A DNA stretch of 64,000 bases from Egibacter rhizosphaerae (GTDB lineage: Bacteria > Actinomycetota > Nitriliruptoria > Euzebyales > Egibacteraceae), in the NCBI RefSeq assembly GCF_004322855.1, contig NZ_CP036402.1, forward strand, positions 310,001 through 374,000, given 5' to 3'. The stretch's first letter is position 1. Each line of letters opens with the position of its first letter. The position numbers were made by a program, and so were the translations under genes. Below the pieces are notes generated by a model. It ran no database searches. It saw nothing but the letters and a program-made list of their open reading frames with translations, and was not told the DNA's origin. This document shows positions 4,110 through 36,689 of this stretch, in pieces.

Positions 4110-5531
4110 TCAGTCGTCGTATGCGTCGATCTCGGCCTGGGTGTCCGCCAGTGTCTCGGCGGGGTCTTCACCGTCAGAGAGCACCGGGAAAACCACTTCC
4201 TCCTCGAGCGCGAGGATCGACTCGGGATAGCGCGGTCCGGTGTACTCGGGTGCGAGCCGATCCAGCGTCTCCTCAATCATGGTGAGCACCGGCTCGTCCG
4301 CGAAGAACGGCTCCGGCTCCGAAAGCGCCGGGTCCTCATAGACGTCCATGCGGAATGGGTCGAAATCCAGGTCCGTCCAGACGCGGACTTGCGCGTCGTA
4401 GCTCAACTTGGCATAGCCGATGAACTCCTGCGCGGCCTGGACCTTGTCATCGTCGATCTGGTTGGTGATCGCCGTCCCGGTACCGCCGCCCATGGTGCTG
4501 ATGGTGCCGCCCTCCTCAAAAGCGGGCATGGGCCGAACGACCATCGAGCCTTCGAGGTCCGGCATGAGGTCGGGGAACCTGCTCATATACCACTGCGGCA
4601 TCCACACCGACGCGAACTCGCCATTGTTGAACGCCTCGTAGAACTCCGGCTCCGCGTGCCCACCGCCCGGCGCCAGGTCGGCGACACCGTGCTCGTGCAC
4701 CATATCGGAGACCATCTCCACGGCCTCAACGTTCTCAGGGCTGTCAATGATCGACTCGTTGCTCGCGTCGTAGAGTCCGCCATCGTTCTGGAGCATCGGG
4801 CCGAGGAGGGACAATCGATTCAGGGTCTCCACCGAGGCGAACGCGGTAATGTCGGTGTTCTCCTGGACCTCGAGGCCAACGTCGACGTAGTCGTCCCACG
4901 TCTCGATGTCGTCAACGTCGACCCCCGCCTCGTCCATGATGTCCTGGTTGTAGTAGGTGACGAAAGCGCCGAGGTGGTAGTCGATGCCGTACGGCGTGCC
5001 GTCGACCTCATATGGCGCCATGCGTTCCTCAACAAGGTCGTCACGGTAAGGGTCGAGCACGTCGTCGAGGGGGAGCAGTTGCACTTCACCACGAGTAAAG
5101 GTCGCGAACCGCTGGATCTCCAGATCGACCAGGTCCGGCGCGCCGGTCCCGGACTCCAACGCGATCAGGGTTCGGTCGTGCATCTCGTCGAAGCTGATCG
5201 ACGTCGCGTCGAGGATGATGTTGTAATCCTCGTTCTCTTCGTTGAACCGCTCCGCCTGCGCGATCAGGAACTCCGCGTGCAGGTCAACGAACGTCCAGAA
5301 CTCGAGCTCGATGTCTTCACCTGGGGTGTCGGGCTGCTCCATCTCGAAGGTCTCTTCCTCGACCTCCTCCTCACCCTCGGTCTCTTCCTCACCTTCGGCC
5401 TCCGGGTCCGCCTCGGCGTCGTCAGCGTCGGCAACCTCGTCGGTGAGGTCCTCGCCGCACGCGGCCGCGAACAGACCTACCGCCATGAGCAGAGCGATCA
5501 CGCTTACCTTCCGGCTCGACTTCACCCGCAT
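4110..5531 (-). CDS. sugar-binding lipoprotein of ABC transporter (solute-binding family 1)
   Basis: 473-residue extracytoplasmic binding protein. The start is the ATG at 5531, following AAGGGGG, rather than an in-frame ATG further upstream, because the signal peptide begins there: MRVKSSRKVSVIALL followed by the lipobox GLFAAAC, with the lipidated Cys near residue 24. A stretch of about 40 almost purely acidic residues links the lipid anchor to the binding domain. The fold signature LEFWTFVDLH and regular family-1 pattern (GGTGTAITNQ, FIGYAKL) follow. It delivers arabino-oligosaccharides (inferred) to the two permeases. The acidic tether fits salt adaptation. Confidence 0.88.
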   Translation of the reverse strand: MRVKSSRKVSVIALLMAVGLFAAACGEDLTDEVADADDAEADPEAEGEEETEGEEEVEEETFEMEQPDTPGEDIELEFWTFVDLHAEFLIAQAERFNEENEDYNIILDATSISFDEMHDRTLIALESGTGAPDLVDLEIQRFATFTRGEVQLLPLDDVLDPYRDDLVEERMAPYEVDGTPYGIDYHLGAFVTYYNQDIMDEAGVDVDDIETWDDYVDVGLEVQENTDITAFASVETLNRLSLLGPMLQNDGGLYDASNESIIDSPENVEAVEMVSDMVHEHGVADLAPGGGHAEPEFYEAFNNGEFASVWMPQWYMSRFPDLMPDLEGSMVVRPMPAFEEGGTISTMGGGTGTAITNQIDDDKVQAAQEFIGYAKLSYDAQVRVWTDLDFDPFRMDVYEDPALSEPEPFFADEPVLTMIEETLDRLAPEYTGPRYPESILALEEEVVFPVLSDGEDPAETLADTQAEIDAYDD

Positions 5532-5751
5532 CGTTTCCCCCTTCTTACGATCGTCTGGCACACTTGGCTGCTGGGTTGGAGCCCGCACTGGTGCGTTGCA
5601 CTCCTGCGCCACGCACCCAGAGCCGTCGGTGGGACTAGCCCGTCCTGCTATCGGTCACGTCCCCGGGCGCCCTGGTACCTCCCTCGACTCCGTCCCTCGA
5701 CCTCCCTCCCTCGCCGATCGTGCTGAGCAGCTCGGGGCACTCCTTGCGAGC

Positions 5752-8318: not shown

Positions 8319-9592
8319 TGGTTGAAGCCGCCGGGGCTAGCCCTGGCTATTCGTGCGCCCAGCACAGCGGAGGTGATGTGTAGTTGACCACCGCGACAAG
8401 CTCGTCGTCGCCTGCCGGTGGGAGTCCAGTCCGGGGAGCTCAACGCACGCTGTACCGGGCGGCCAAGGCCGATCCCGGGCGACGGTTCCACGCGCTGTAC
8501 GACAAGGTCTATCGCAGGGACGTGCTGCAGCGCGCGTGGGAACAGGTGCGCGCCAATCGGGGCGCGTTGCTCGATGAGTTGGCCGTCGAGCTCAAGGGCG
8601 GCGGCTATCGGCCGTTGCCGGCACGCCGGGTGTGGATTCCCAAGCCCGGCTCGTCGGAGCAGCGCCCGCTGTCGGTCCCGGCGGTTCGGGACCGGATCGT
8701 GCAGACGGCGGTGAGGATCGTCATTGAGCCGGTCTTCGAAGCCGACTTCTTGCCTTGCTCGTTTGGGTTCCGACCCAAGCGTGGGGCGTACGATGCGTTG
8801 CAGGTCCTCATCGACGAGGCCTGGGACGGCAACCGGTGGGTCGTGGAGACCGATATCGCCTCGTGTTTCGAGGAGATTCCGCACTCTGGTTTGATCGAAG
8901 CGGTCGAGGAGCGCATCTGCGACCGTCAGGTGCTCAAGCTCTTGCGCGTGATGCTGCGCGCGGGAGTGATGGAGCACGGCGTGGTCGAAGGCAGCGTGTC
9001 CGGCACCCCGCAAGGCGGCGTGGTGTCGCCGCTGTTGGCCAATGTCTACCTGCACCGGCTCGACCGGTGGTGGCAGGCCAACGGCGTGGGAGTGATGGTG
9101 CGCTACGCCGACGATCTCGTGCGCCACGAGGCGCTGTTTGACCGGGTGGAGATGAAAGGGCTCCACCGGCGGCCTGTCGCAGCGGGCCGTTTGAAGCCCG
9201 GGGCAGCCCGAGGCTGGAGGTGCAGCCGAGGGTGGGAAGCCGCCCTGACAACGACGGGACGGGTCGGGATCGCCAGACGGCTCGGGTCCGGCAAGCGAGG
9301 TGAGAGGGTGTACGAGAGGAACCAGCGTTGACGCCCCGTAAGCGGCGTGCCGGCTCAAATCTGGCGGATAGGGGCCGGTTGGCAGTGCGCGTCGCCCCCC
9401 CACACGACTTCTCGGGGAAACGCCGCAGTCCTTCGACGTGGCCTCCCGCGGCGGCGGCAAGGCTCACCGTCGGCTGATGGCCGCCGGGTGGGGCGGAGCC
9501 TTCGTAGTAGTCCGAGCCGGGGAAAGCCCGGCACATGGCGAAGGAAGGCAGCAAGACCGCAGCTTGTGGACTGGAATGCCAGGAGGTCGCCG

Positions 9593-11035
9593 GTGAAGAC
9601 GGGCGCGTCGTGGCCGGACCTCGATGAGGCTCGGGCGCGGGTACTGGAGATCCAGACGAAGCTGCACCGATGGGCACGCAACGGTCCTGCGTGCCGGTTC
9701 GATGACCTGGCAAACCTCGTCGCCGATCCCGCGTTCCTCGTGGTGGCGTGGGATCGGGTGCGCCACAACACCGGTGCCCGGACGGCGGGCGTGGACGGCT
9801 ACTCCGCCCGCGACATCGAAGCCGACCCGGGACCAGCAGCGTTTCTCGCGACCGTTCGTGAGCAGCTCAAGACGCGGGCGTTCGGGCCGCTGGCGGTGCG
9901 GGAGCGGATGATCCCCAAGCCGGGCACGCGCAAGCGTCGCCGGCTGGGCATCCCGACCGTGACCGACCGGGTGGTGCAGGCGGCGTTGAAACTGGTGCTG
10001 GAACCGATCTTCGAGGCGGACTTCGCGCCGTGCTCGTATGGGTTCCGGCCCGGCAGGCGAGCGATGGACGCTGTGGCTGAGATCAGGCTGCTGGCCGCCA
10101 ACTCCTATGAGTGGGTGATCGACGCCGACATCGAGGCGTGCTTCGACGAGATCGACCATGTGGCCCTGATGGGCCGGGTGCGTCGACGGGTCGGGGACAA
10201 ACGCGTCCTGGCGCTGGTCAAGGCGTTCCTGAAAGCCGGGATCCTCTCCGAGGACCAGGTCACCAGGGACACCCACACCGGCACCCCGCAAGGGGGCATC
10301 CTCTCGCCGCTGCTGGCCAACATCGCGCTGACGATGCTCGACGACCATTTCGTCGAGGCGTGGGAGACCCACATGGGCGACCGTGTGGTCCGCGCCCGAC
10401 GGAAACGACACGGGATCTCCAACTACCGGCTGGTCCGGTACGCCGACGACCTCGTGCTCATGGTCTCGGGCACGAAGGCCGACGCCGAGCAGCTGCGGGA
10501 GACACTCGCTGAGGCCTTGGCTCCGATCGGCCTGCGCCTATCGGAAGCCAAGACCAACGTCGCTCACATCGACGAGGGGTTCGACTTCCTCGGCTGGCGC
10601 ATCCAGCGTCACACCAAGAAGGGAACCACCAAGCGCTACGTCTACACCTACCCGTCCAAACGGTCCGTGCTGCGGATCGTGGACAAGGTGCGGCAGCGCT
10701 CCAGGTTCGGACCGGACGTGCCGTACGACACCCTGCTGTATCGCCTCAACGCGATCCTGCGCGGGTGGGCCAACTACTTCAAGCACGGGGTGTCCTACGC
10801 CACGTTCGAATACCTTCGCGCCTACACGTGGCGGCGGGTCATCGGCTGGCTGCGAGACAAACACCCCCGTGCGACCTGGAAGCAGCTCCGACGCCGCCAC
10901 CTCGCAGGAGGCTGGTGGCCCACGGACGGCAAGGTGGAACTGCTCAACCCCACCACGGTGCGCACCGTGCGCTACCGCTACCGGGGCAGCGACATCCCCT
11001 CGCCGTGGCCTGCGGCACACAAGGACGCCGCGTGA
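9593..11035 (+). CDS. ltrA: group II intron reverse transcriptase/maturase (intact)
   Basis: 480-residue intron-encoded protein that reverse-transcribes the intron and aids its splicing. The start is GTG after AGGAGGTCGCC; upstream in-frame ATGs fall in the ribozyme region. RT blocks are seen: RMIPKPGTRKRRRLGIPTV, FEADFAPCSYGFRPGR, DADIEACFDEI, TGTPQGGILSPLLAN and the catalytic [10 protein letters not shown]. The maturase (X) region follows with AILRGWANYFKHGVS and a basic tail. No HNH endonuclease domain is seen after the X domain, so mobility would rely on nicked or replicating targets (family knowledge). It belongs to a different RT subgroup from its host RT, by visible sequence differences. 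Confidence 0.92.
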   Translation: MKTGASWPDLDEARARVLEIQTKLHRWARNGPACRFDDLANLVADPAFLVVAWDRVRHNTGARTAGVDGYSARDIEADPGPAAFLATVREQLKTRAFGPLAVRERMIPKPGTRKRRRLGIPTVTDRVVQAALKLVLEPIFEADFAPCSYGFRPGRRAMDAVAEIRLLAANSYEWVIDADIEACFDEIDHVALMGRVRRRVGDKRVLALVKAFLKAGILSEDQVTRDTHTGTPQGGILSPLLANIALTMLDDHFVEAWETHMGDRVVRARRKRHGISNYRLVRYADDLVLMVSGTKADAEQLRETLAEALAPIGLRLSEAKTNVAHIDEGFDFLGWRIQRHTKKGTTKRYVYTYPSKRSVLRIVDKVRQRSRFGPDVPYDTLLYRLNAILRGWANYFKHGVSYATFEYLRAYTWRRVIGWLRDKHPRATWKQLRRRHLAGGWWPTDGKVELLNPTTVRTVRYRYRGSDIPSPWPAAHKDAA

Positions 11036-11053
11036 ACAGCCGGGTCTTGCGGA

Positions 11054-11087
11054 GAGCCGGATGCGCGGAGACGCGCACGTCCGGTTC
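11054..11087 (+). ncRNA. domain V of inner group II intron
   Basis: 34 bases from GAGCCGGATGCG to ACGTCCGGTTC form the two-arm hairpin with the GA-rich internal loop expected of group II domain V, the catalytic core of the ribozyme. It follows the RT stop codon by 18 bases. Confidence 0.85.
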
Positions 11088-11194
11088 GGTGAGCGGGCCG
11101 GAGAAACGTACCGTCGGAAACGACGGCAACGCGCTCCGGTCCGACTTCTACGTCGTGATGTGTCGCAACCGCCAGGAGGCCGAGCACGCACGCG

Positions 11195-11514
11195 TGTTGC
11201 TCTCTGACCTTCTGTCGGATCCGCCGCTGCGTGAGCTCACGAAGACGGTCGCGGGCGTGCTGCATGGCCTTGTCCGAGGGACAGCGGGCGAGGAGAAGCA
11301 CACGTGCCGGTTGCGGCGGGACTTCGCGCGCACCCAACGGTGGTGGAACCCGAGGAAGTCCAGGCCCTCACCGCCTTCGTGCAGGTGCACGATCACCGTC
11401 TTCGACGCCTTGGGTCGAAGCCCAAGAGAGTTGCCGTAGCGGAAGTACTCGGCCCAGCCGCGCAAGAACCGGTTGAGGTCCCGCACGATCGCTTCGTCGG
11501 GCAGCCTGACCCGC
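11195..11514 (-). other. two adjacent inverted blocks within the outer RT gene
   Basis: Block 1 (about 11195-11426) and block 2 (about 11428-11514) both encode RT/maturase sequence on the opposite strand from the rest of the gene. On the minus strand the order is block 2 then block 1, the reverse of their order in an intact RT, so each was flipped separately in place. Break points fall at short hairpins, such as CACGCGTG near 11189 and CTTGGG…CCCAAG at 11410-11426. Exact boundaries are uncertain by a few bases. Confidence 0.7.
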
Positions 11515-11725
11515 AGCTTCGGCAAGATCAGGGACTATGCGCTGATGCGACTCGCGGGCGTGATCGCCAAACGGCATCAACGTTCGCGAGCGTTCGGCTG
11601 GTCGGTGGTCGCCTACAAGTCCGGCGACCAACTCGGCCTGATGCGCCTTGACGGGATCGTCGTCGCTCCCAGGCCCCACCAGGCCTGGCGTGGATAGCCG
11701 AACGCCGACGGTGAAAGACGTCGGT

Positions 11726-11758
11726 GAGCCGTGTGCGGGAGAACCGCACGCACGGTTC
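11726..11758 (+). ncRNA. domain V of outer group II intron
   Basis: GAGCCGTGTGCGGGAGAACC followed by GCACGCACGGTTC gives the domain V hairpin, 28 bases after the end of the host RT frame. It marks the 3' part of the outer intron. Confidence 0.75.
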
Positions 11759-12689
11759 GACGGGCGGGCGCTGGAAACGGACGCTTGCGACCACGGTGGC
11801 GTCACGCTGTATGCCGAGCGGGAAACCAACCGGCACGTACGCTGCCCACCTACCGTCGACTCACAAGCGCACCGCGCCAGCGCCCGACCCTACACGCCGG
11901 TTAGGCGCGGGGTGGGGCGCCTGGAATGAGATGACCGCTTGGCCTGCGAGGATGCGGTTTGTCCAGCACACGCATCCGAGACCAAGGGGTTCGTACGACG
12001 ACCGCGAGGTCCTCATCCGCGGCGGTGTGGGCTATGCGGTCAGGGCCTTCCTCGCCCAAGTCGTCGGCCAGGGCTGCGGGTTCTCGGCGAGCTTCGAGAT
12101 CACCGAGGCGGTCAAGACCGCCATCAAAGCGCTGGACGAGCGCGCCTGGGAGCCGGCGATCCGCCAAGACCACACGCTGCGCCCCGGCGCGGCGGTCACC
12201 GAACTCACCCGCCTCATCGACCTGCGCGAGGGGTGGCCGGCCGCCTCGCGGCTGATCATCCGCCGCGAACCCTTGCACCCCGGCGCGCAGCAAACCATCG
12301 ACGACCTCGACGGGTGCCGGTTCACCGCCCTGCTCACCGACCAACCCGACGACGATCTCGCCGTGCTCGAGCAGCGCCACCGCGCCCGCGCTCGCGCCGA
12401 GGACCGCATCCGCACGCTGAAAGACCTCGGCATCGGCAACCTGCCCTGGGGCGACTCTGACGGCAACGCCGTGTGGCTGCAGCTGGCGCTGCTCGCGCTC
12501 AACCTGCAGGTCTGGACCCAAGCTCCGACCCTCGACGGCGAGCTCGCCCGCGCCGAACCAAACGCCTGCGCTACCAGCTCTTCCACACCGCCGCGCGCGT
12601 GGCCCGCAGCGCCCGCCGCGTCACCATCAGACTCCACGCCCACTGGCCCTGGACCCCCTGGGCCTCCCCCGTAGGGCTGGACACCGTGC

Positions 12690-13605
12690 CTATGCGGCGA
12701 TGGGGGTCGCCACGCTATCGGGGGCGCGGCAGCTGTGTGCTTGTTCCCACTCGGTCGGCGGCAAGTAGTTCAGCGTCGAGTGCAGCCTCCTGTCGTTGTA
12801 CCGGGCGATCCACCGGAAGATCGATGTGCGCGCTTCGCGTCGGGTCTGGTAGCGGCAGCGGTTGACGAGCTCGACCTTCAACGTCGCGAAGAAGCTCTCG
12901 GCCACGGCGTTGTCCAGGCACGAGCCGGTGCCGGCTGGCCGACTGGGTCACGCCCAGCCGCCAGCAGGCTTGCGCGAACGCCTCACTCATGTATTGGGTG
13001 CCGCGGTCGTGATGGAAGATCACGCCGTTCATGCGGACCACCCCGCGCTCGGCGACCGCATGGTCGAGCGCGGCGATCATCAGCTGCGCGTCGGGCGTGT
13101 CGCTCATCGACCAGCCGATCAGTCGGCGACTGGCCAGATCGATGACGGTGGCCACGTACAGCCAGCCCTCGCCGGTGGGCACATACGTCAGGTCGCCGCA
13201 CCACACGTGATCGGGCCAGGCCGGGTCGAAGTGGCGGCCGACCAGGTCGGGCATCGGCGGCTCGCCGGTGTCGCGCTGGGTCGTCGAGGCGCGCTTGACC
13301 GGCCGGTAGCCGACCAGGCCGTGCTCGCGCATCAACCGGGCCACGCGTTTCTCGTTTGCCTGCCAGCCGCGCCGGGTCAGCTCGAACGTCATGCGCGGCG
13401 ACCCGTAGGTCTCATCCATGTGGGCGTGAATGTCGCGGATCTCGGCCAGCAGGGCAGCGTCGGCGCGCTCCTTGTCGCCGGGCTCGTGGGTCTCACCGGC
13501 GACCCACTGGTAGTAGGCCGTGGTGGAGACCTCGACGGCCTCACAGGCCGCGGTGGCGGCGAACCCGGCTGCCTTCTGGGCGTCCACGCAGCGGTAGCGC
13601 GTCAC
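12690..13605 (-). pseudogene. IS3-family transposase OrfB, frameshifted
   Basis: DDE integrase-type transposase. The HTH_21 region near residue 55 (DIHAHMDETYGSPRMTFEL) is followed by the rve catalytic domain: Asp in WCGDLTYVP, Asp in FHHDRGTQY, and the final Glu in NAVAESFFATLKVEL. An extra base near 12935 moves the reading frame between LGVTQS and the AESFF motif, so the catalytic Glu is out of frame with the first two Asp residues. The GTG start overlaps the orfA stop by one base. Either a dead element or a base-call error. Confidence 0.82.
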
Positions 13606-14219
13606 TACGTCGATTCCTTGACCCAGAAGGCGACTGTTCGTTTGAGCAGATCACGCTCCATGCGCAGGTGCGCGTTCTCCTGCTCGAGCGTCCGCAGCCG
13701 CTCGCGCTCGTCGCTGGAGACACCGTCACGCTCACCATCATCGACCCGGGCCTGACGAACCCAGTTGCCCAGCGAAGTGTCGGAGATGCCGAGCTCGGCG
13801 GCCACGTCGGCGATCGACTTCCCGCTGGTACGCACCAGCTCCACGGCCTCACGCTTGAACTCGGCAGAGAACTTCCGTCGGGTGCGTTGCGCCCCGTGCT
13901 GTTGCCCGTCTGAGCCGTGAATGCAGTCTGCGGTATGCCAGGGCTCGGAGGCACCGGAGGGGGTCTTGTCGGTGGCGAGCACGACGGCGGCGGGGCAAAT
14001 CGCTGCTTGGGTCGCCGGTCCGGGCACGAAGAGGTGGGCCGTCCCAGGGGCCCGTACCGGCTCCAGAGTCTGAGCCACGTCCTCGTAGGAACAATCGGTG
14101 GTACCTGGCAGGCCCCCTGCCTCATGCTGACACTGCAGGCTCGAGGCGCTACAGACGAGCGAGGTCAGGAGACGGCCCGGCCCCATTCTCATCCTCAGTG
14201 GCGGGGCGTCAAGCCCCAT
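13605..14219 (-). CDS. IS3-family transposase OrfA, long N-terminal extension
   Basis: The last 95 residues form a normal OrfA: RRKFSAEFKREAVELVRTSG, helix-turn-helix VAAELGISDTSLGNWVRQAR, and a leucine-zipper-like stretch ERLRTLEQENAHLRMERDLL. The frame stays open upstream to an ATG at 14219, 61 bases inside the element's right end, adding about 105 residues of unrecognised sequence. A normal OrfA would start near 13910, but no ATG or GTG is well placed there. The extension may be real or a leftover of an internal change that also explains the element's slightly long size. Confidence 0.7.
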   Translation of the reverse strand: MGLDAPPLRMRMGPGRLLTSLVCSASSLQCQHEAGGLPGTTDCSYEDVAQTLEPVRAPGTAHLFVPGPATQAAICPAAVVLATDKTPSGASEPWHTADCIHGSDGQQHGAQRTRRKFSAEFKREAVELVRTSGKSIADVAAELGISDTSLGNWVRQARVDDGERDGVSSDERERLRTLEQENAHLRMERDLLKRTVAFWVKEST

Positions 14220-14544: not shown

Positions 14545-14574
14545 GGTGGCCGGGCCCAGCGGGGCCCGGCCACC
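14545..14574 (-). terminator. 13-bp GC-rich hairpin terminator
   Basis: Arms at 14545-14557 and 14562-14574 pair perfectly over 13 bases around a 4-base loop, 22 bases after the stop of the acidic lipoprotein gene. The T-run is weak. It would close the GT4-ndh-lipoprotein group. Confidence 0.7.
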
Positions 14575-14595
14575 TGTCATTGAGCCGATGAGCCC

Positions 14596-16569
14596 CTAGG
14601 ACCCGGCTTCGTCGTCCAGACCCTCGTCGTCCTCGTCGGTCGTGCCGAGCTCATCGGTGGCGTCGCGATCGCCTCCGGCGGGCTGGCGCAGCAGCTGCCG
14701 CAGCTGCTCCTCGTCGATCTCCTGGACCTGGTCGTCGTCCGGGATCTCGATGTCGACCTCGCCCCCGAAGTCGTCGAACTCGATGACCATGTAGCGGAAG
14801 GCGGCATCCTCATCACCGGGCTCCTGACCCGGGTCATCGGTCACACCGCCCTCATCGTCGTCGACGCCGTTCTCGTCGTCCTCGACGCCGTTGTCGTCGT
14901 CGAGACCGTCCTCGGTGGTGGGCTCGTCCAGGTCGTACTGGATGGCCTGGACCAGGTCCTCCTCATCGATCCAGACTTGCGCGGTGACCTGTTCGGCCTC
15001 ATCGTCGAGACCGTTGTCGTCATCATCGACGCCGTTCTCGTCGTCCTCGACGCCGTTCTCATCGTCGACGCCGTTCTCATCGTCGAGGCCGTTGTCGTCA
15101 TCGTCGACACCGTTCTCATCGTCGAGGCCGTTGTCGTCATCGTCGACGCCGTTCTCGTCATCGACGCCGTTCTCGTCATCGAGACCGTTCTCGTCATCGA
15201 GACCGTTCTCGTCATCGAGACCGTTGTCCCGCTCGATCACAACCTCGTACTGCGTGAGACCAGTGGTGTCCTCGGGACCGGCCTCGGCGTCCGTGCCCTC
15301 GTCGTCGAGACCGTTCTCGTCATCGACGCCGTTGTCCTCGTCGTCGAGAGCGTTGTCATCCTCGTCGACGCCGTTCGCGTCGTCCTCGACGCCGTTGTCC
15401 TCGTCGTCGAGGGCGTCGTCGTCATCATCGAGGCCGTTGTCCTCGTCGTCGAGACCGTTCTCGCCATCGACGCCGTTGTCCTCGTCATCCTCGACGCCGG
15501 CCTCGTCATCGACCCCGTTACCATCGTCGACCTCGGTTGCCTCGACGACGTCCTGCAGCTCGGTGATGGCGTCCTGTGGGCTCTGGAACGCAACGCCGCC
15601 GGGGCCCCCGACCGCTTGCGCGTCCCGTAGGTCCTCGAGATCGACCTCGACCCACACGCCCTCGTCGTCGGCAACGCCGTCCTCGTCATCGTCGAGGGCG
15701 TCGTCGTCCTCATCGACGCCGTTCTCGTCGTCCTCGTCGACGCCGTTCTCGTCGTCGAGACCGTTCTCGTCGTCCTCGTCGAGGCCGTTCTCGTCATCGT
15801 CGACGCCGTTGTCATCGTCGTCGAGACCGTTCTCGTCCTCGTCGACGCCGTTGTCATCGTCGTCGAGACCGTTCTCGTCACCGGCCTGACCGTTAACCGC
15901 GTCCTCGGCGAAGCGGAGGTAGGCCTGGTCACCATCGATGACGATCGCGCGAGCGTCGTCGTTCACCTGTTCCAGCCAGGCCTGGTCGGCATCGAAGTCG
16001 ACGCTGCCGTCGAACTCCAGGGCCTGCTCCGCCGTGCCGTTCTCCGGCGCGGCCTCGTCACCGACGTCGTCGTCGTCGAGGGCGTCGTCGTCCTCGTCGA
16101 CGCCGTTCTCGTCGTCGAGACCGTTGTCATCGTCGTCGAGACCGTTCTCGTCGTCATCGACGCCGTTGTCATCGTCGTCGAGACCGTTCTCGTCCTCGTC
16201 GACGCCGTTCTCGTCGTCATCGAGGCCGTTGTCATCGTCGTCGAGGGCGTCGTCGTCCTCGTCGTTGCCGACGCCGGCGTCGTCCTCGCCAGGTGCGCCG
16301 TCGGGATGAAGCTGGAGCTCGAGCGCAGCCGTCCCAGCGTCCTCGGTGTTCTCGGCCGCCGTCTCGACACGCTCCGCGGCGTCGTCCTCCTCGGGTTCCT
16401 CGTCCTCGGGTTCCTCGTCGTCGAGGTCGTCGTCCGTGTCCTCCGGTTCAGTGGGTTCCTCTTCGGCGCCCTCGTCCTCGACATCGGTGTCGTCATCGAC
16501 CTCGCAGGCCGCAATGACAAGCGCCAGCGCGAAGACCAGGGCGAGGCTCCAACTCCGTAGCTTCCTCAT
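14596..16569 (-). CDS. acidic Asx/Glu/Asn-Gly repeat lipoprotein on an LppX/LprG-like scaffold
   Basis: 657 residues. The start is the ATG at 16569 (GGGAGGAG ribosome site), which begins a signal peptide ending in the lipobox ALVIAAC. The protein then alternates between ordinary folded-looking segments and long runs of a D-[DE]-[DE]-N-G-[LV]-D repeat (about residues 100-172, 230-305, 349-430, 446-525 and 553-575). The folded segments in order (AAERVETAAENTEDAGTAAL, GSVDFDADQAWLE, AIVIDGDQAYLRF, VWVEVDLEDL, LTQYEVVIERD, AQVWIDEEDLVQAIQYDLDE, MVIEFDDFGGEVDIEIPDD) follow the strand pattern of actinobacterial LppX/LprG-type lipid-carrier lipoproteins. I infer one such domain with repeats inserted in its loops. 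The repeats resemble calcium-binding loops. It acts at the cell surface; the role is unknown. Confidence 0.85.
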   Translation of the reverse strand: MRKLRSWSLALVFALALVIAACEVDDDTDVEDEGAEEEPTEPEDTDDDLDDEEPEDEEPEEDDAAERVETAAENTEDAGTAALELQLHPDGAPGEDDAGVGNDEDDDALDDDDNGLDDDENGVDEDENGLDDDDNGVDDDENGLDDDDNGLDDENGVDEDDDALDDDDVGDEAAPENGTAEQALEFDGSVDFDADQAWLEQVNDDARAIVIDGDQAYLRFAEDAVNGQAGDENGLDDDDNGVDEDENGLDDDDNGVDDDENGLDEDDENGLDDENGVDEDDENGVDEDDDALDDDEDGVADDEGVWVEVDLEDLRDAQAVGGPGGVAFQSPQDAITELQDVVEATEVDDGNGVDDEAGVEDDEDNGVDGENGLDDEDNGLDDDDDALDDEDNGVEDDANGVDEDDNALDDEDNGVDDENGLDDEGTDAEAGPEDTTGLTQYEVVIERDNGLDDENGLDDENGLDDENGVDDENGVDDDDNGLDDENGVDDDDNGLDDENGVDDENGVEDDENGVDDDDNGLDDEAEQVTAQVWIDEEDLVQAIQYDLDEPTTEDGLDDDNGVEDDENGVDDDEGGVTDDPGQEPGDEDAAFRYMVIEFDDFGGEVDIEIPDDDQVQEIDEEQLRQLLRQPAGGDRDATDELGTTDEDDEGLDDEAGS

Positions 16570-16670: not shown

Positions 16671-17990
16671 TCAGCGCGACTCGGCCCGCATCAGCGAGCG
16701 GTGCAGCGGACCGCCGGGACGTTCCAGCGCATCCAGCTGCGTGGGATCGTTGGGGAACGCCGTACCCAGGCTCCACTCCAGCGCCAGGCGTACGCGCCGG
16801 CTCACCGAGGGCATCTGTGCGACGTAGTACGCGCGGCGAGCGAGCCACGGCAACTTCCCGACGAGCTGACGACCCGCCACGGTCCCCATCGCCGTGTGGC
16901 TGCCCAAGGTGACCAGTTCGGCGGATTCGCCGTGCGCGTAGGCCTCCGGCGCCCGCCCCTGCAGGACCCGCGCCAGGTTGCTGCCGAGCTGCTTCCCCTG
17001 ACGAGTCGCCTGCTCCGCGGTGGGTGGATACGAACCGCCGTCGGGACGCGGCACTGCCGCACAGTCCCCCAGCGCCCACACGTTCGCATGATCCGGCACA
17101 CGCATCGTGCGATCCACCTCGACGCGGCCGGCGTCGTCGAGGTCGAGGCCGAGGCGGCGCACACACGGGTGGGGCTCCACCCCTGCGCTCCACACGACGG
17201 TGTCGGCCAACAACTCCTCGCCTGTGGACAACTGCAACCGCCCGTCATCGATGCGCTCCACGGTCGTCCCAAGACGCACGTCGATGCCCCGCCGTCGCAG
17301 CTTCACCACTGCACGGTCGGCGAGCTCCAGCGGCAGGTTCGGCAGTATGCGGTCCGCGGCCTCCACCAGGGTCCACTGGATCTCTTCGGGCTCCACGTTC
17401 TCGAAGCGCTCGGCCGCGCGCTGCGCGAGGTAGTGCAACTCCGCCAACGCCTCCACACCCGTGTAGCCACCGCCGATGAACACCGCGCGCAGGGCGGACT
17501 CACGAGCGTCGGGATCCTGGGTCGACTCGGCGATCTCGAGTCGGGAGAGCATCGCGTTGCGCAGGTGGAGGGCCTCGGCGACCGTACTAAACGCGACCGC
17601 GTGCTCGTCCAGTCCGGGGATCAGCAGCGCCCTCGGAGCGGAACCCAACGCGATGACGACGTGGGTGTACGCCAGCTCGTAGGGATCCCCCGCCGGCGGT
17701 TGGACGGTCACCGTCTTCCGCGCCGGATCGAGCCCGTCGAGCTCACCCATGCGAAAGCGCACCCTCGGTAGGGCCTGCCGGATCGGAGCGACCGCGTGGC
17801 GGGGTTCGATCGCGCCCGACGCCACTTCCGGCAACAGTGGCTGGAACAGCATGTGGTTTCGCGGCGAGACGAGGACCACCTCGACCGCGCCCCGGAAGCG
17901 TCGATGCAGCGCCTGCACAACCGAGACGCCGGCGAAGCCCCCGCCGGCAACCACGACCCGCGGGACATCCGTCGGTTCAGCAGCGTTCAT
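16671..17990 (-). CDS. ndh: type II NADH dehydrogenase (FAD-dependent)
   Basis: 439-residue single-subunit, non-proton-pumping NADH:quinone oxidoreductase at the inner face of the membrane. The N-terminal FAD-binding loop is VVVAGGGFAGVSVVQAL; the NAD-binding loop is AVFIGGGYTGVEALAEL near residue 167; the second FAD motif is VWALGDCAAVP near residue 305, followed by PPTAEQATRQGK. The ATG at 17990 follows AGGAGG and is preferred over much longer upstream frames that overlap the glycosyltransferase gene. A hydrophobic, Tyr-rich C-terminal region (LARRAYYVAQMPSVSRR) may attach it to the membrane. It could feed the quinone pool used by the bc complex encoded 25 kb away. Confidence 0.9.
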   Translation of the reverse strand: MNAAEPTDVPRVVVAGGGFAGVSVVQALHRRFRGAVEVVLVSPRNHMLFQPLLPEVASGAIEPRHAVAPIRQALPRVRFRMGELDGLDPARKTVTVQPPAGDPYELAYTHVVIALGSAPRALLIPGLDEHAVAFSTVAEALHLRNAMLSRLEIAESTQDPDARESALRAVFIGGGYTGVEALAELHYLAQRAAERFENVEPEEIQWTLVEAADRILPNLPLELADRAVVKLRRRGIDVRLGTTVERIDDGRLQLSTGEELLADTVVWSAGVEPHPCVRRLGLDLDDAGRVEVDRTMRVPDHANVWALGDCAAVPRPDGGSYPPTAEQATRQGKQLGSNLARVLQGRAPEAYAHGESAELVTLGSHTAMGTVAGRQLVGKLPWLARRAYYVAQMPSVSRRVRLALEWSLGTAFPNDPTQLDALERPGGPLHRSLMRAESR

Positions 17991-18048
17991 TCCCCGGACC
18001 TCCTCGGAACATTGACGATGTGCACGAACCAGCAGCGCCCGCCGCGGC

Positions 18049-19269
18049 TCACGGACCCGGCGCGGCGGACACAGCGGCTGGGGTACGCGCCGCCCGCGCG
18101 TCCAACACCTCGCGGTAGAGGTCTGCCGCATGCCCCGCCGCCGTCGTCCAATCCGTCCAGCCGTGTTTGACCGACGGCGCGAGCCGCGCCATCTCGCGGC
18201 GACGCTTGGGCTCGTCGAGCAGCGTCCGAAGGCACCGGGCGAGCCCTCGCGCGTCACGCGGAGGCACGGTCGCGACCGGCGACGGCTTGCGCGTGCCTGC
18301 GATCCGCCCGAGCCCGCCGAGATCGGCCGCGACGACCGGTACCCCGCACGCGAGCGCCTGAGCCGCCGGCACCATGGAGGCGTGGGACGGCACCGTCGGA
18401 TACTGAACGAGCAGGTCCGCGGAGCGCAGCAGCGCTGGCGCCTCCCGGTGAGGCACCTGGCCGAGGAAGCGGACCCGGTGCTCGACCCCCACCTGCCGGG
18501 CATGCTTTCGGAGAGCGCCGATCGTCTCGTCCCCGTCCAGCTCGGCCGGCCGGGGACCGCCGACGACGAGGAGCTCGGTCTCGGGTACCTCGCGGAGCGC
18601 GCTCAGGACCCCTTGTAGGTCGTGCAGTGACGGCGGGGAGGCCACGGTCACGAGCCGGCCGCCGGGAGAGCGCTCGACGCCGGGCACGTCGGTCGAGAAC
18701 CGCCTCGTGTCGACGCCCACCGGCAGGCTCGAGATGTCGGAGCGTGAGACCTCGAGGGCGCGCAGCTTGGCGAGGACCGCCCCACAGTGGACGACACAGC
18801 GAGTGGCCGAGTAGGCCAACTGCTGCTCGAGCGCCAACTCGGCGGGCCGGCTGCCACGGACCATGCGGTGCGCGCTCTGCAGCGAGCGCAGATCGGTGAA
18901 GGTGTGGACCAGCGGGCGGTCGCCGACCGCGCGCCGCGCGGCGGCCGCTGCCAGCATGCCCCACGTATGGATCAGGTCGGGCGGTTCCTCACGCCATTGC
19001 TCGGCGAGCGCGTCCGCGATGGGCTCCGTCGCCGCATCCCACGACTCCGGGCTCGACGGAGGCTTCGGCAGGCGTCGCGTTTCCAGGCCCTCCTGCTCCG
19101 AGTGCTCGACCAGACCAGGCGCCTGTCGCCCGACGCTGAGTTCGACACTGTTCCCCGCGCGGGCAAGGTGCGTCGCCCAGGCACACACGTCGCCCTCACG
19201 CCCTCGAGCCGCGCCGGCTCCCAGGGCAGGCTCCGGCTCCGCCCCCTCCGCGACCATCGCGATTCGCAT
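18049..19269 (-). CDS. GT4 family glycosyltransferase (GT-B fold)
   Basis: 406 residues. The N-terminal acceptor domain begins MRIAMVAEGAEPEP, with HTWGMLAAAAARR and LVHTFTDLRS. The nucleotide-sugar domain has SSLPVGVDTRRFS, TELLVVGGP, VRFLGQVPH, LVQYPTVPSHASMVPAAQAL (the E-x7-E type region, here with weak Glu conservation) and GVPVVAADLGGLGRIAG. The start at 19269 with AAAGG fits the MRI-type N-terminus of the family. It resembles MshA-like and other actinobacterial GT4 enzymes; donor and acceptor are unknown. It leads the group with ndh and the repeat lipoprotein, though gaps of 58 and 101 bases make a single operon uncertain. Confidence 0.85.
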   Translation of the reverse strand: MRIAMVAEGAEPEPALGAGAARGREGDVCAWATHLARAGNSVELSVGRQAPGLVEHSEQEGLETRRLPKPPSSPESWDAATEPIADALAEQWREEPPDLIHTWGMLAAAAARRAVGDRPLVHTFTDLRSLQSAHRMVRGSRPAELALEQQLAYSATRCVVHCGAVLAKLRALEVSRSDISSLPVGVDTRRFSTDVPGVERSPGGRLVTVASPPSLHDLQGVLSALREVPETELLVVGGPRPAELDGDETIGALRKHARQVGVEHRVRFLGQVPHREAPALLRSADLLVQYPTVPSHASMVPAAQALACGVPVVAADLGGLGRIAGTRKPSPVATVPPRDARGLARCLRTLLDEPKRRREMARLAPSVKHGWTDWTTAAGHAADLYREVLDARAARTPAAVSAAPGP

Positions 19270-32442: not shown

Positions 32443-34304
32443 GGCACGTCCTGACGACTCCAGCCCCACGCGATCAGGCACACCGCGACCCCCAACGCTC
32501 CCGCGATGAACAGGGCCAGCATGTCCACGAGGACGGCGAAGAGCAGCAACGCGACCGACAGTGCCGTCCCGAGCGGCCAGAGCGAGTGCACGGGGATCGT
32601 GATGAGGCGCTCGGGCTCGGCGTCGAGCACGCTGCTGATGAGCAGCTCCCGGCGGTCGGCGCGCTCGACGAGCGCACCGGCACCGTCCTCGGCCACGCCG
32701 TCCCACAGCGGGTAGCGGCCCAGGACCCGCGGGGAGTGGCTGAAGTTGTACTGCGCCGGTGGGCTCGTCGCCGCCCACTCGAGCGTGCCGCCGTCCCACG
32801 GGTCGTTGCCCGCTGTGGGGCCACGCAGGCTCCCCCGGAAGAGATCGAATAGCACCACGGCGATCCCCAGGGCCGAGACCACGGCGCCGATCGAGGCCAC
32901 GAGGTTGCCGAGCTCCCAACCCAGGCCGGCCTCGTAGGTCCAGATCCGCCGGGCCATCCCGTCGAAGCCGAGCTGGTGCATCGGGAAGAACGTGACGTTG
33001 ACCCCGATGAAGAACAACCAGAAGCCGAGGTGGCCGAGCCTGGCGGACAGCATCCGCCCCGTGATCTTGGGCGTCCAGTAGTAGAGCGCCGCGAGTAGCG
33101 GGAAGACCGTGGACCCGATGATCACGTAGTGGAAGTGCGCCACGACGAAGTAGGTGTCGTGCGCTTGCCACGTGAACGGGATCATCGCGAACATGACCCC
33201 GGTGAGGCCGCCGGTCACGAACACGATGAAGAAGCCCATCACGTAGAGTAATGGAGGGTCCCACTTCGGTCTGCCGTTCCAGAGCGTCGCGATCCACGCG
33301 AAGATCTGCACGCCGCTCGGGATCGTGATGAGCAGCGTGCCCGCCGCGAAGAACGCGAGGCCGATGAACGGCAGGCCGGTGGCGAACATGTGGTGCACCC
33401 ACGTGCCGAAGCTCATGATGCCGATCGCGACGGTGGCGGCCGCCACGAGCGGGTAGGCCACCATGCGGTGCCGCGCGAACACGGGGATCAGGGTGGACAC
33501 GACCCCGAACGTCGGCAGGCTCATGATGTAGACCTCGGGATGGCCGAACCACCAGAAGATGTGCTGCCAGAGCACCGGGTCACCGCCGAGGTCGGGATTG
33601 AAGAACACCGTCCCGACCTTGCGGTCGAGTTCGAGCATGATCGAGCCCATCACGAGCGGGGGGAACGCGAACAGCACCATCAGCGCGGTGACGAACACGC
33701 TCCACACGAACAGGGGCAGCCGCGCAAACGTCATCCCCGCCGCCCGTGTCTTCAGGACGAGCACGACGATCTCGAGCGCGGCGACGATCCCGCTGATCTC
33801 CACGAAGGTCACGCCGAGCAGCCAGAAGTCGATGTTGTCCCCGGGGCTGTACTCGGGCCCGGTCAGCGGGGTGTAGGCGAACCATCCCCCGTCGGGGACG
33901 CTCCCGGCGAAGAAGCTCGCGTACAGGAAGATTCCCCCGGCCAGGTAGGCCCAGTACCCGAACGCGTTGAGGCGGGGAAACGGCATGTCCCGCGTGCCCA
34001 GCATCAACGGCGCGAAGTAGATCGCGAGCGCCTCGGTGATCGGCACCGCGAAGAGGAACAGCATCGTGGTGCCGTGCATCGTGAAGAGCTCGTTGTACGT
34101 CTGCGCGTCGAGGACGCTCTGTCCCGGCGCCCCCAGCTGCCAGCGCATCAGGAGCGCCTGGATGCCGCCGAACGCGAAGAACACGATCGCGGTGACGAGG
34201 AAGCGCTTGCCCACCTGCTTGTGGTTCACCGCGCCGAGCCATCCCAGCACCCCGGGCTTCGTCGCCCAGGTGGCCTCCATCCGGTCCGCGGGGGGTGCGC
34301 TCAT
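32439..34304 (-). CDS. ctaD: cytochrome c oxidase subunit I (heme-copper)
   Basis: 621 residues. Low-spin heme ligand in FTMHGTTMLFLFAVP; CuB/active-site region WWFGHPEVYIMSLP with the His-Tyr pair and the Glu of GHPEV (type A1); CuB histidines in TWVHHMFATG; heme ligands in VAHFHYVIIGS. About 14 spans, the last two after a soluble stretch. It reduces oxygen to water and pumps protons. It overlaps ctaC by four bases. Confidence 0.95.
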   Translation of the reverse strand: MSAPPADRMEATWATKPGVLGWLGAVNHKQVGKRFLVTAIVFFAFGGIQALLMRWQLGAPGQSVLDAQTYNELFTMHGTTMLFLFAVPITEALAIYFAPLMLGTRDMPFPRLNAFGYWAYLAGGIFLYASFFAGSVPDGGWFAYTPLTGPEYSPGDNIDFWLLGVTFVEISGIVAALEIVVLVLKTRAAGMTFARLPLFVWSVFVTALMVLFAFPPLVMGSIMLELDRKVGTVFFNPDLGGDPVLWQHIFWWFGHPEVYIMSLPTFGVVSTLIPVFARHRMVAYPLVAAATVAIGIMSFGTWVHHMFATGLPFIGLAFFAAGTLLITIPSGVQIFAWIATLWNGRPKWDPPLLYVMGFFIVFVTGGLTGVMFAMIPFTWQAHDTYFVVAHFHYVIIGSTVFPLLAALYYWTPKITGRMLSARLGHLGFWLFFIGVNVTFFPMHQLGFDGMARRIWTYEAGLGWELGNLVASIGAVVSALGIAVVLFDLFRGSLRGPTAGNDPWDGGTLEWAATSPPAQYNFSHSPRVLGRYPLWDGVAEDGAGALVERADRRELLISSVLDAEPERLITIPVHSLWPLGTALSVALLLFAVLVDMLALFIAGALGVAVCLIAWGWSRQDVP

Positions 34305-35272
34305 TCGAGCGACTCGAGGTAGGCGAGCAACGCCTCCAGCTGCTCACCGTCGAGATCGGTCGGCGGCATCGACACCCCCGGCTTGTTGGACTGCGGATCC
34401 AGGATCCAGCCGGACAACTCCCCCCGATTGTTGCGCATGATGCCCGCACCGAGCGTCTGGCGGCTCGCGAGGTTCGTGAGGTCGGGCCCGACGCCGAACT
34501 CCCCCTCCGTGAGGTCACCGGGCTCGGGGCCGCCCACCCCCCGGATGGCATGGCAGTCGATGCACGCGGCATCCTCGAAGACCTGCTCGCCCTGGGCGGT
34601 CAACTCGGTGTCGGGCTCCGGGGCTTCAGCGCGCTGCTCGTCGAGCCAGGCGTCGAACGCGGCCGGCTCCTGGGCCACGACGATCTTGAGCATCTGCGCG
34701 TGCGCGATCCCGCAGTACTCCGCGCAGAACCCCCGGTAGACGCCGGCCTCCTCGGCCTCGAGCCAGTGCTCGTTCACCCGGCCGGGGACCATGTCCATCT
34801 TCCCGTGCAGCTCCGGGACCCAGAAACTGTGGATCACGTCCGAGGCGTGCAGGCGCAGCTCGATCGGCTGTCCCGTCGGGATGTGCAGCTCGTTCGCCGT
34901 GATGACCTCGTCCTCCTCGCCCGCGTTGTAGCGAATCTCCCACCAGAACTGGTGACCGACGACGTCGACGGTGAGGTCGGGGTTGCCGGGGGGGTCGTAC
35001 ACCTGCTCCCCGCTCCACAGCAGTACCCCCATGAGCCCGAGCAGCACGAGACCGGGCAGGACGAGACCCCACACCACGACGAAGGGTTCCCGCAAGGTAC
35101 CGCCGTGGCGTCGCAGCAGCGCGAGCGCGAGCCACAGCATCGTGATCACGAAGGTGACGACCGCGCCCCACAGCAGGATCTGCCAGACGGTGGCGATGAT
35201 CTCGGCCGCTGGCCCCTGGGGCTCGAGCACCGAGGTCTCGCCGGCCCCCGAGCGGCCCGACCGGTCGGTCAT
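34301..35272 (-). CDS. ctaC: cytochrome c oxidase subunit II with fused cytochrome c (caa3 type)
   Basis: 323 residues. Two N-terminal membrane spans, then a cupredoxin domain with CuA ligands: His in SDVIHSFWVPELHGKMD and the C-x3-C site FCAEYCGIAHAQM. A cytochrome c domain follows: heme site CIDCHAIRG near residue 240, and a Met ligand in GVSMPPTDLDG. This fusion defines caa3-type oxidases, which take electrons directly from the bc complex. The ATG lies in the first unit of a 29-bp tandem repeat that supplies its ribosome site (GAGGAG). Confidence 0.93.
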   Translation of the reverse strand: MTDRSGRSGAGETSVLEPQGPAAEIIATVWQILLWGAVVTFVITMLWLALALLRRHGGTLREPFVVVWGLVLPGLVLLGLMGVLLWSGEQVYDPPGNPDLTVDVVGHQFWWEIRYNAGEEDEVITANELHIPTGQPIELRLHASDVIHSFWVPELHGKMDMVPGRVNEHWLEAEEAGVYRGFCAEYCGIAHAQMLKIVVAQEPAAFDAWLDEQRAEAPEPDTELTAQGEQVFEDAACIDCHAIRGVGGPEPGDLTEGEFGVGPDLTNLASRQTLGAGIMRNNRGELSGWILDPQSNKPGVSMPPTDLDGEQLEALLAYLESLE

Positions 35273-35413
35273 CGCGCCGGGGCTCCTCTGTCCTCCGTCA
35301 TCGCGCTGGGACTCCTCTCTCGTCGGTCATCGCACCGGGACTCCTCTCTCGTCCCTCATTGCGCCGGGACTCCTCCCCCATGCCTCACCGCGCCGGGACT
35401 CCGCTCTCGTCCA
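35269..35413. repeat. five tandem 29-bp repeats at an operon stop/start junction
   Basis: Units start at 35269, 35298, 35327, 35356 and 35385, all 29 bp and differing at a few positions each. Read on the minus strand each carries GGAG, then about 10 bases, then ATGA or GTGA. The MFS stop codon lies in the 5' unit (35385) and the ctaC ATG in the 3' unit (35272), so the repeats fill the space between the two genes. Confidence 0.9.
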
Positions 35414-36689
35414 TCGACGCGCCGTCCCGTGCGCCAGTCTCGCCACCCTCGGCGATACGCTCAGGTGCCCTCGCGAGGATCGCCGGCAGGATCGCGGCGA
35501 CGAACGCCACGACCGCCCAAACGTAGAGCGGCACCTCGAACGAGCCTGTCAGGTCGCGCAACTCTGAGGTCACGAGCGGACCGATCACCCCGCCCGCGCT
35601 CCAGGCGATGATCATCGCACCGAAGACGGCCCCGTTGTGTTCGGGTCCGAACAGGTCGGCGGTCCACGCGGGGGTGATCCCGAAGCCGCCCCCGAACCCG
35701 AGCGCCACGATCGAGGCGAGCAGCGCGAACACGACGATCTGTGGCACGAACGGGATCGCCACGAAGCACAGCGCCTGGACCACGAGCATCGCGGTGTAGG
35801 TGGTCCGCCGGCCGACCCGGTCCGAGAGCGCCGCCAGCCCGGGTCGACCCAGCGCGTTGAACACGCCGAGCAGGCCGACGATGAAGGCCCCCTGACCAGC
35901 ACTGGCCTCCGCGACCTCCTGGGCGATGGGCGAGGCGAGGGTCACGAGGGCGATGCCGACCGTGACGTTCGCGAGGAAGGCGATGCACAGCGCGTACCAC
36001 TGCCAGGTCCGCAGGGCCTCCCCCGCGGTGAGGTCGTCGCCCCGAGGCGAGGGCGGCGGGTCGGGCAGGTCGGCGCTCTCCGGCGGATCCTTCAGGAAGA
36101 ACGCGAAGGGCAATCCGATCACGAGGTAGATGGCCGCGAGGATGCCGAACACCGGCGGCACGTCGCCCACGAGCGCCATCAGGCCCTCACCGGCGGGTCC
36201 GGCGAGCAGCGCTCCGGCGCCGAAGCCCATGGTCGCGAGGCCCGCGGCCATCCCCCGCTGGTCGGGGAACCACTTCACGATCAGCGCGGGGCACGGGATG
36301 TAGGCGATGCCCAGGCCGATGCCGGCGAGCACGCCGTGACCGGCGACAAGGATCCACAGATCGCCGGGGTCGGTGACGAGCACCCCGGTCGCGACGCCGA
36401 CGCAGAACACCACGACGCCGATGACCACGACCCATCGCGGCCCCCAGCGGTCCTGGACCCGGCCGCCGAAGTACGCGCCGAGGAAGATCGCCCCGATGTT
36501 CGCCATGAGCGGGGCCATCGCCTGCGTCCAGGTCCAGTCGAAGCTCTCCTGCAGTGGGGTGACGAAGACGCTCCAGCCGTACACGCCGCCCAGCGGGAAC
36601 AGGACGATGAACGTCGCGGCGGCCATCCACCAGCGCGTTCGCATGGCGGGGGTGCCCTCGGACCGTTCGATGCGGTTCTCGGTGCTCAT
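35385..36689 (-). CDS. MFS transporter, OFA (oxalate/formate antiporter) family
   Basis: 434 residues, 12 predicted membrane spans. GGVYGWSVFVTPLQESF, GRVQDRWGPRWVVVIG (MFS loop 2-3 motif), AYIPCPALIVKWFPDQRGMA and the second-half loop LSDRVGRRTTYT are typical of OFA/oxalate:formate exchangers. The ATG overlaps the fdhC stop by four bases. Position directly after the formate dehydrogenase genes makes formate a good substrate guess; monocarboxylates such as lactate are possible. Mechanism (uptake or exchange) cannot be told from sequence. Confidence 0.85.
   Translation of the reverse strand: MSTENRIERSEGTPAMRTRWWMAAATFIVLFPLGGVYGWSVFVTPLQESFDWTWTQAMAPLMANIGAIFLGAYFGGRVQDRWGPRWVVVIGVVVFCVGVATGVLVTDPGDLWILVAGHGVLAGIGLGIAYIPCPALIVKWFPDQRGMAAGLATMGFGAGALLAGPAGEGLMALVGDVPPVFGILAAIYLVIGLPFAFFLKDPPESADLPDPPPSPRGDDLTAGEALRTWQWYALCIAFLANVTVGIALVTLASPIAQEVAEASAGQGAFIVGLLGVFNALGRPGLAALSDRVGRRTTYTAMLVVQALCFVAIPFVPQIVVFALLASIVALGFGGGFGITPAWTADLFGPEHNGAVFGAMIIAWSAGGVIGPLVTSELRDLTGSFEVPLYVWAVVAFVAAILPAILARAPERIAEGGETGARDGASMDESGVPAR

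Follow-up and report, generated by a model that had tools for sequence, protein, structure and literature searches.

Acidic Asn-Gly repeats in five loops of an LppX/LprG-like lipoprotein of Egibacter rhizosphaerae

The lipoprotein gene and its surroundings

The window analysed here is a stretch of 64,000 nucleotides of Egibacter rhizosphaerae (contig NZ_CP036402.1, positions 310,001 to 374,000), and all coordinates are positions within it unless another contig is named. Its minus strand carries a gene for an acidic, repeat-bearing lipoprotein, with these features in and around it:

16671..18503 (-), upstream gene for an NADH-dehydrogenase-like flavoprotein (Pyr_redox_2), 101 nt before the lipoprotein gene
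14596..16569 (-), repeat-bearing lipoprotein gene, 657 aa, read from the sequence as an open reading frame
16504..16569 (-), lipoprotein signal peptide and lipobox to Cys22 (LVIAAC), read from the sequence
16384..16503 (-), acidic tether, residues 23-62, 70% Asp/Glu, without NG[LV] repeats
14545..14576 (-), strong hairpin just past the stop codon, with a 14-bp G+C-rich stem and no U run (z = -6.4)
12715-14219 (-), IS3-type transposase pair (HTH_21 and rve), directly downstream of the lipoprotein gene, beyond the hairpin

The start codon is an ATG at 16569, with AAGGGAGGAG just before it, and the stop codon is at 14596. A longer frame with a GTG start at 17193 was rejected because it would overlap the upstream gene. 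The reading frame, the start, the ribosome site and an orthologue from a second genus are all consistent, therefore an assembly artefact or a frameshift was rejected as well. The signal and lipobox stretch, MRKLRSWSLALVFALALVIAAC, contains the lipobox IAAC with Cys22, a lipoprotein signal as found in the SCO4651 group described below. The tether comprises the 40 residues after Cys22, and an acidic tail at the other end of the protein runs to residue 657.

The protein contains 195 Asp and 96 Glu, 291 acidic residues in all, and a single Lys, which gives a net charge of -279. Proteins of the window have a median of 13% Asp plus Glu and a median pI of 6.1, thus the lipoprotein does not owe its acidity to a general salt-in proteome. 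Elsewhere in the window (4110-5612, minus strand), an SBP_bac_1 solute-binding lipoprotein with 25% acidic residues has a Glu/Asp-rich tether after its lipobox, so acidic linkers occur on exported proteins of this genome.

The hairpin is the probable end of the transcript. The position of the transposase pair is occupied by a DUF2231-Rieske gene in genome G010, which belongs to another genus of the same family and carries the orthologue. The flavoprotein gene adjoins the lipoprotein gene in G010 too, and the two flavoproteins are 67% identical; in the window, the Pyr_redox_2 match starts near residue 182 of the longest open reading frame. A neighbouring MFS or MmpL transporter was not identified at the Egibacter locus.

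Two Rfam group II intron matches were found on the plus strand of the window, at 11052-11151 (54.9 bits) and 11724-11797 (43.2 bits). Open frames around 8384-11525 may encode group II intron proteins, possibly of two nested or tandem introns. A 29-bp tandem array at 35264-35424 (5.6 copies, 79% matches) begins at the start-codon end of the minus-strand open reading frame 34301-35272.

One domain in six islands

Between the tether and the acidic tail, the protein alternates between six islands of ordinary composition and five acidic inserts, A-E:

16297..16383 (-), island 1, residues 63-91, N-terminal helix plus strand 1
16045..16296 (-), insert A, residues 92-175, 7 NG[LV], between strands 1 and 2
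15898..16044 (-), island 2, residues 176-224, EFDGSVDF ... AIVIDGDQAYLR
15661..15897 (-), insert B, residues 225-303, 8 NG[LV], with strand 'AYLR' before it and strand 'WVEVDL' after it
15529..15660 (-), island 3, residues 304-347, strand WVEVDL plus helix SPQDAITELQDVVEATE
15280..15528 (-), insert C, residues 348-430, 8 NG[LV]
15235..15279 (-), island 4, residues 431-445, strand LTQYEVVIE
14998..15234 (-), insert D, residues 446-524, 12 NG[LV], where relatives have a segment of 19-31 residues
14917..14997 (-), island 5, residues 525-551, TAQVWIDEEDLVQAIQYDL hairpin
14824..14916 (-), insert E, residues 552-582, 2 NG[LV]
14740..14823 (-), island 6, residues 583-610, strands FRYMVIEFDDFG and VDIEIP, followed by the acidic tail

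The inserts consist of 48-56% acidic residues, lack aromatic residues, nearly lack basic ones, and have one turn-forming N-G per unit. The core aromatics are all in islands (14/14) and none is in an insert.

Searches of Pfam, NCBIfam and the PDB with the intact protein or with single islands found no relevant family, and for the intact protein no Pfam family was matched up to E = 10. When the repeats were deleted in silico and the islands joined, as the sequence-only reading had suggested, the product did match the LppX-like superfamily. The match was to the NCBIfam SCO4651 family lipoprotein (NF053532; E = 1.8e-10), at 40.9 bits, below the curated cut-off of 65 bits; the full protein gave no match to this family. 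SCO4651 is listed as a target of sigma-E (envelope stress) in Streptomyces coelicolor (PMC6767563).

A test profile was built from nine repeat-free relatives, leaving out the Egibacter repeat protein. To avoid hand-picking, a rule based only on composition was also used to cut out the repeats, and what was left scored 72-79 bits against the nine-relative profile. The six islands were then scored against the same profile in every one of their 720 possible orders. The highest single-domain score, 56.8 bits, belonged to the natural order, the next order scored 43.5 bits, and residue-shuffled versions (n = 1000) reached 7.4 bits at most. By whole-sequence score five other orders were slightly above the natural one, up to 68.6 vs 63.9 bits; since this score sums fragments, the single-domain score is the informative one. 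Islands in natural order span positions 24-280 of the 292 in the profile, a collinear whole-domain match to the SCO4651 group, and hhalign paired the two repeat bearers, from Egibacter and G010, with the SCO4651 family at 99.3%.

The nine relatives also provide the link to the mycobacterial lipid carriers. All of them match SCO4651 (9/9, best E = 3e-38), and 2/9 also match PF07161 LppX_LprAFG (best E = 8e-5). The Egibacter protein and its islands did not match PF07161 up to E = 10, short of the Pfam gathering cut-off. LppX was not found by a PDB profile search from the nine relatives, therefore profile-profile comparison was used instead. The SCO4651 group aligned with LppX_LprAFG at 98.9% by hhalign (E = 1e-17, 192 columns), the islands with three relatives at 96.8% (E = 3e-10), and the two repeat bearers alone at 87% (E = 4e-6). 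The LppX_LprAFG (LprG-like) template in turn matches the solved chains LprG, LppX and LprF. Judged by these comparisons, the core is a single collinear domain broken by five repeat runs between secondary-structure elements. The sequence-only reading had proposed one LppX-type domain of this kind, and the island order, the profile matches and the orthologue all bear it out.

The repeats and their distribution

The repeat motif is D-D-[DE]-N-G-[LV]-D, with 37 NG[LV][DE] units in the five blocks. When residues were shuffled within the loops, NG[LV] occurred 1.0 times on average and 5 times at most. Units are spaced by 6-8 residues (16 spacings of 7, 11 of 6 and 2 of 8), so the period is a loose heptad and is not rigid.

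The repeat DNA had been described as minisatellite-like, and it is: TRF found periods of 18-63, and the units fall into DNA lineages. Leu is encoded by CTC in 23/23 cases in the repeats vs 8/23 in the islands (P = 2e-6). The Gly codon is tied to the residue that follows it, with GGT before 12/17 Leu and 1/20 Val (P = 6e-5). Among the other window genes, GGT stands before CTC in 1/29 cases, therefore the linkage points to a common DNA ancestry of the units and not to ordinary codon context. To look for spread of repeats between loops by gene conversion, the longest exact matches were compared with a codon-shuffle null. Only the A-B pair showed a moderate excess over the null mean, still inside its range, and such spread was rejected. 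Phage matches to the gene were discounted as Asp-rich low-complexity matches.

Asn-Gly is the dipeptide most prone to deamidation, which occurs readily under alkaline conditions, and it is also favoured in tight turns. The inserts of this one exported protein (P0001, window 14824-16296) contain 37 such pairs. Asn is kept at 37/39 [DN]G sites in the Egibacter protein and at 7/8 in the G010 orthologue. A change from AAC to GAC (Asn to Asp) takes one transition, and retention of Asn in spite of this argues for constraint at the protein level; within one gene, repeat homogenisation alone could also keep Asn.

The islands of the G010 orthologue are 56% identical to those of Egibacter, and acidic inserts lie in the same five loops. 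The lengths of loops A to E are as follows:

Egibacter: 95, 85, 92, 83 and 43 residues
G010: 33, 46, 26, 69 and 67 residues
Nine repeat-free relatives: 7-15, 7-12, 11-13, 19-31 and 4-51 residues

Island lengths between anchors are near constant in Egibacter and G010 (20-21, 27, 5-6 and 2 residues). The same five loops are stretched in a second genus, to different lengths, so their placement is more than a chance feature of a single genome. This comparison of orthologue lengths, which the sequence-only reading had called for, excludes repeats that occur only as a terminal block. Loop E, and less so loop D, is already acidic in the nearest repeat-free relatives. G010 encodes the same motif with other codons (AAC GGG TTG and AAC GGG GTC) and has partly different units (DDDVLN and ATDDDVTDD). 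NG[LV] units are scarce or absent in its inserts A and B, and B uses ATDDDVTDD-type repeats, so that not every loop has the same motif. Judging by these differences, the DNA repeats turned over or had separate origins, and the acidic N-G-[LV] pattern persisted.

A tree unites the two repeat bearers in one clade (100/99), which is grouped with relatives from genomes G019 and G014 (92/92). Among 66 genomes of the class that were compared, repeats were recognised only in Egibacter and G010. A degenerate DNA pattern for [DE]-[DE]-N-G-[LV]-[DN]-D was searched in 21 genomes of the family, and 24/24 matches are in these two genes (21 in Egibacter and 3 in G010) with zero control matches; the repeats are specific to this gene. 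The Egibacter genome has two repeat-free paralogues above the NF053532 cut-off, and a contig scan for relatives gave only one, a Nitriliruptorales MAG fragment. The G014 relative is split over two contigs (L057 1-620 and L058 1-320) exactly at the position of insert D. A repeat at this break may have stopped the assembly, or the coincidence may be due to chance.

A proposed polyanionic shell and its alternatives

In LprG, the TAG headgroup lies between loops L1 (aa 65-72) and L2 (aa 95-98), and the cavity entrance is lined by Leu115 and Phe123 (PMC4709180). The residues named in that paper agree with the solved chain, in which V-N-G-K-I-P-G-L-S-L is 64-73 and L-T-P-N-Q-W-S-D-F is 115-123. By alignment, insert A would replace loop L1, and insert B would fall between Leu115 and Phe123 at the cavity mouth. 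The mapping placed A and B and did not place C, D and E. Two AlphaFold2 runs without a deep alignment gave pLDDT of 41 and 39.5; at this low level (~40) the secondary structure in both models is nearly confined to the signal peptide and the islands, which lends weak support to the layout. A shell around the lipid pocket, as first suggested from the letters, is partly supported, through loops A and B at the cavity mouth.

The reading we prefer, with a probability of roughly 0.6, is an exported LppX/LprG-like lipoprotein with a core for a hydrophobic ligand and five loops grown into a polyanionic, probably cation-binding, disordered shell. By homology, the core of the membrane-anchored protein would hold its ligand as LprG and LppX do. 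Its five surface loops would have been lengthened by tandem D-D-[DE]-N-G-[LV]-D repeats that grew as minisatellites and were apparently kept as a protein motif. The inserts would be extended, flexible and hydrated, would lie outside the fold, and would hold water and divalent cations. The polyanionic shell would then envelop the domain and also the mouth of its ligand cavity, at loops A and B. A role of the repeats in hydration at high salt is plausible. We consider it doubtful that the shell also acts as an ion gate, with selected N-G repeats in the cavity-mouth loops collapsing or extending in response to divalent cations, salt or pH to control ligand loading; the 37 exposed Asn-Gly pairs could in that case gain charge with age by deamidation.

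The main rival is neutral growth, in which GAC-rich DNA slips in frame, the surface loops of the LppX-like lipoprotein put up with the added length, and the repeats themselves are without function. We regard this as possible, though clearly less probable than the shell. It accounts for the DNA lineages with their GGT-CTC and GGC-GTC words and uniform CTC for Leu, for insert lengths that vary between genera, and for the confinement of inserts to places where the fold tolerates length. It does not readily account for expansion of the same five loops in two genera with 56% island identity, for a protein motif that is constant while the DNA words differ between Egibacter and G010, or for retention of Asn-Gly against an easy change. 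A general tendency to slippage would also be expected to affect other genes, and the repeat is in no other gene of the 21 family genomes.

Ordered calcium modules of the TSP3, EF-hand or RTX type, which would fold on Ca2+ in the loops and gate the pocket, are improbable. DxDx[DN]G[LV] agrees with how a TSP3-type loop begins, the N-G turn would suit such a module, and the strict TSP3-like 12-mer, DxDx[DN]G[LIV]xDxx[DEN], occurs at 7/39 sites, where residue shuffles predict 0.2. If NG[LV] is held together during shuffling, these 12-mers average 1.8 and reach 8, so the seven are inside the shuffle range and are not decisive. The EF-hand and RTX consensus motifs have 0 and 0 matches in the protein, the repeats match neither TSP_3 nor any other Pfam family up to E = 10, and no PDB relative of the repeat was found. 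Spacing of 6 to 8 residues is unlike a regular solenoid, and the cysteines of TSP3 are absent. The calcium loops suggested from the letters are thus not supported so far. Least probable of all, in our view, is a core that serves the neighbouring flavoprotein as carrier of a quinone or some other lipid of the respiratory chain, with the acidic loops secondary. Three loci hint at a respiratory-lipid link: the flavoprotein gene is directly upstream in both repeat-bearing genomes, and the repeat-free relative in G019 (L056 3001-13934) has ccsB-type genes for cytochrome c biogenesis on one side and menE, menB, menA, menC and menD on the other. These are only two cases and one case, the menE gene of G019 is convergent so that the genes are not one operon, and the G014 relative has no such neighbours. 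Moreover, the flavoprotein acts on the cytoplasmic face while the lipoprotein is outside.

In this protein, one folded domain has taken up ~350 low-complexity acidic residues at five loops, in the same places in two genera, with its core intact. It can serve as a test case on two questions: how minisatellites come to build insertions in multiple loops instead of tails, and whether a lipid pocket can be tuned by charged loops. It is also an example of how such proteins escape annotation, having no Pfam match at full length though its core is ordinary.

Three known systems are comparable. With the SCO4651 family (NF053532) the Egibacter protein shares the lipobox, the island lengths and the order of elements AAERV..AA..T, DG.xxY.R, W.xxD, VW.D and DFG.xVdI..P, and it differs in the five loops stretched to 43-95 residues by acidic repeats. 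With LppX_LprAFG (PF07161) of mycobacteria, comprising LppX, LprG and LprF, it has whole-domain profile-profile homology and the lipoprotein anchor in common; it differs by its long acidic inserts and by the lack of a PF07161 match at the sequence level. Thrombospondin type 3, EF-hand, dockerin and RTX repeats likewise combine Asp-rich units, a turn at Gly and an aliphatic residue. Unlike those calcium repeats, which are recognised by profiles that the Egibacter units do not match, the units described here have loose spacing of 6-8 residues, Asn before Gly and no cysteines.
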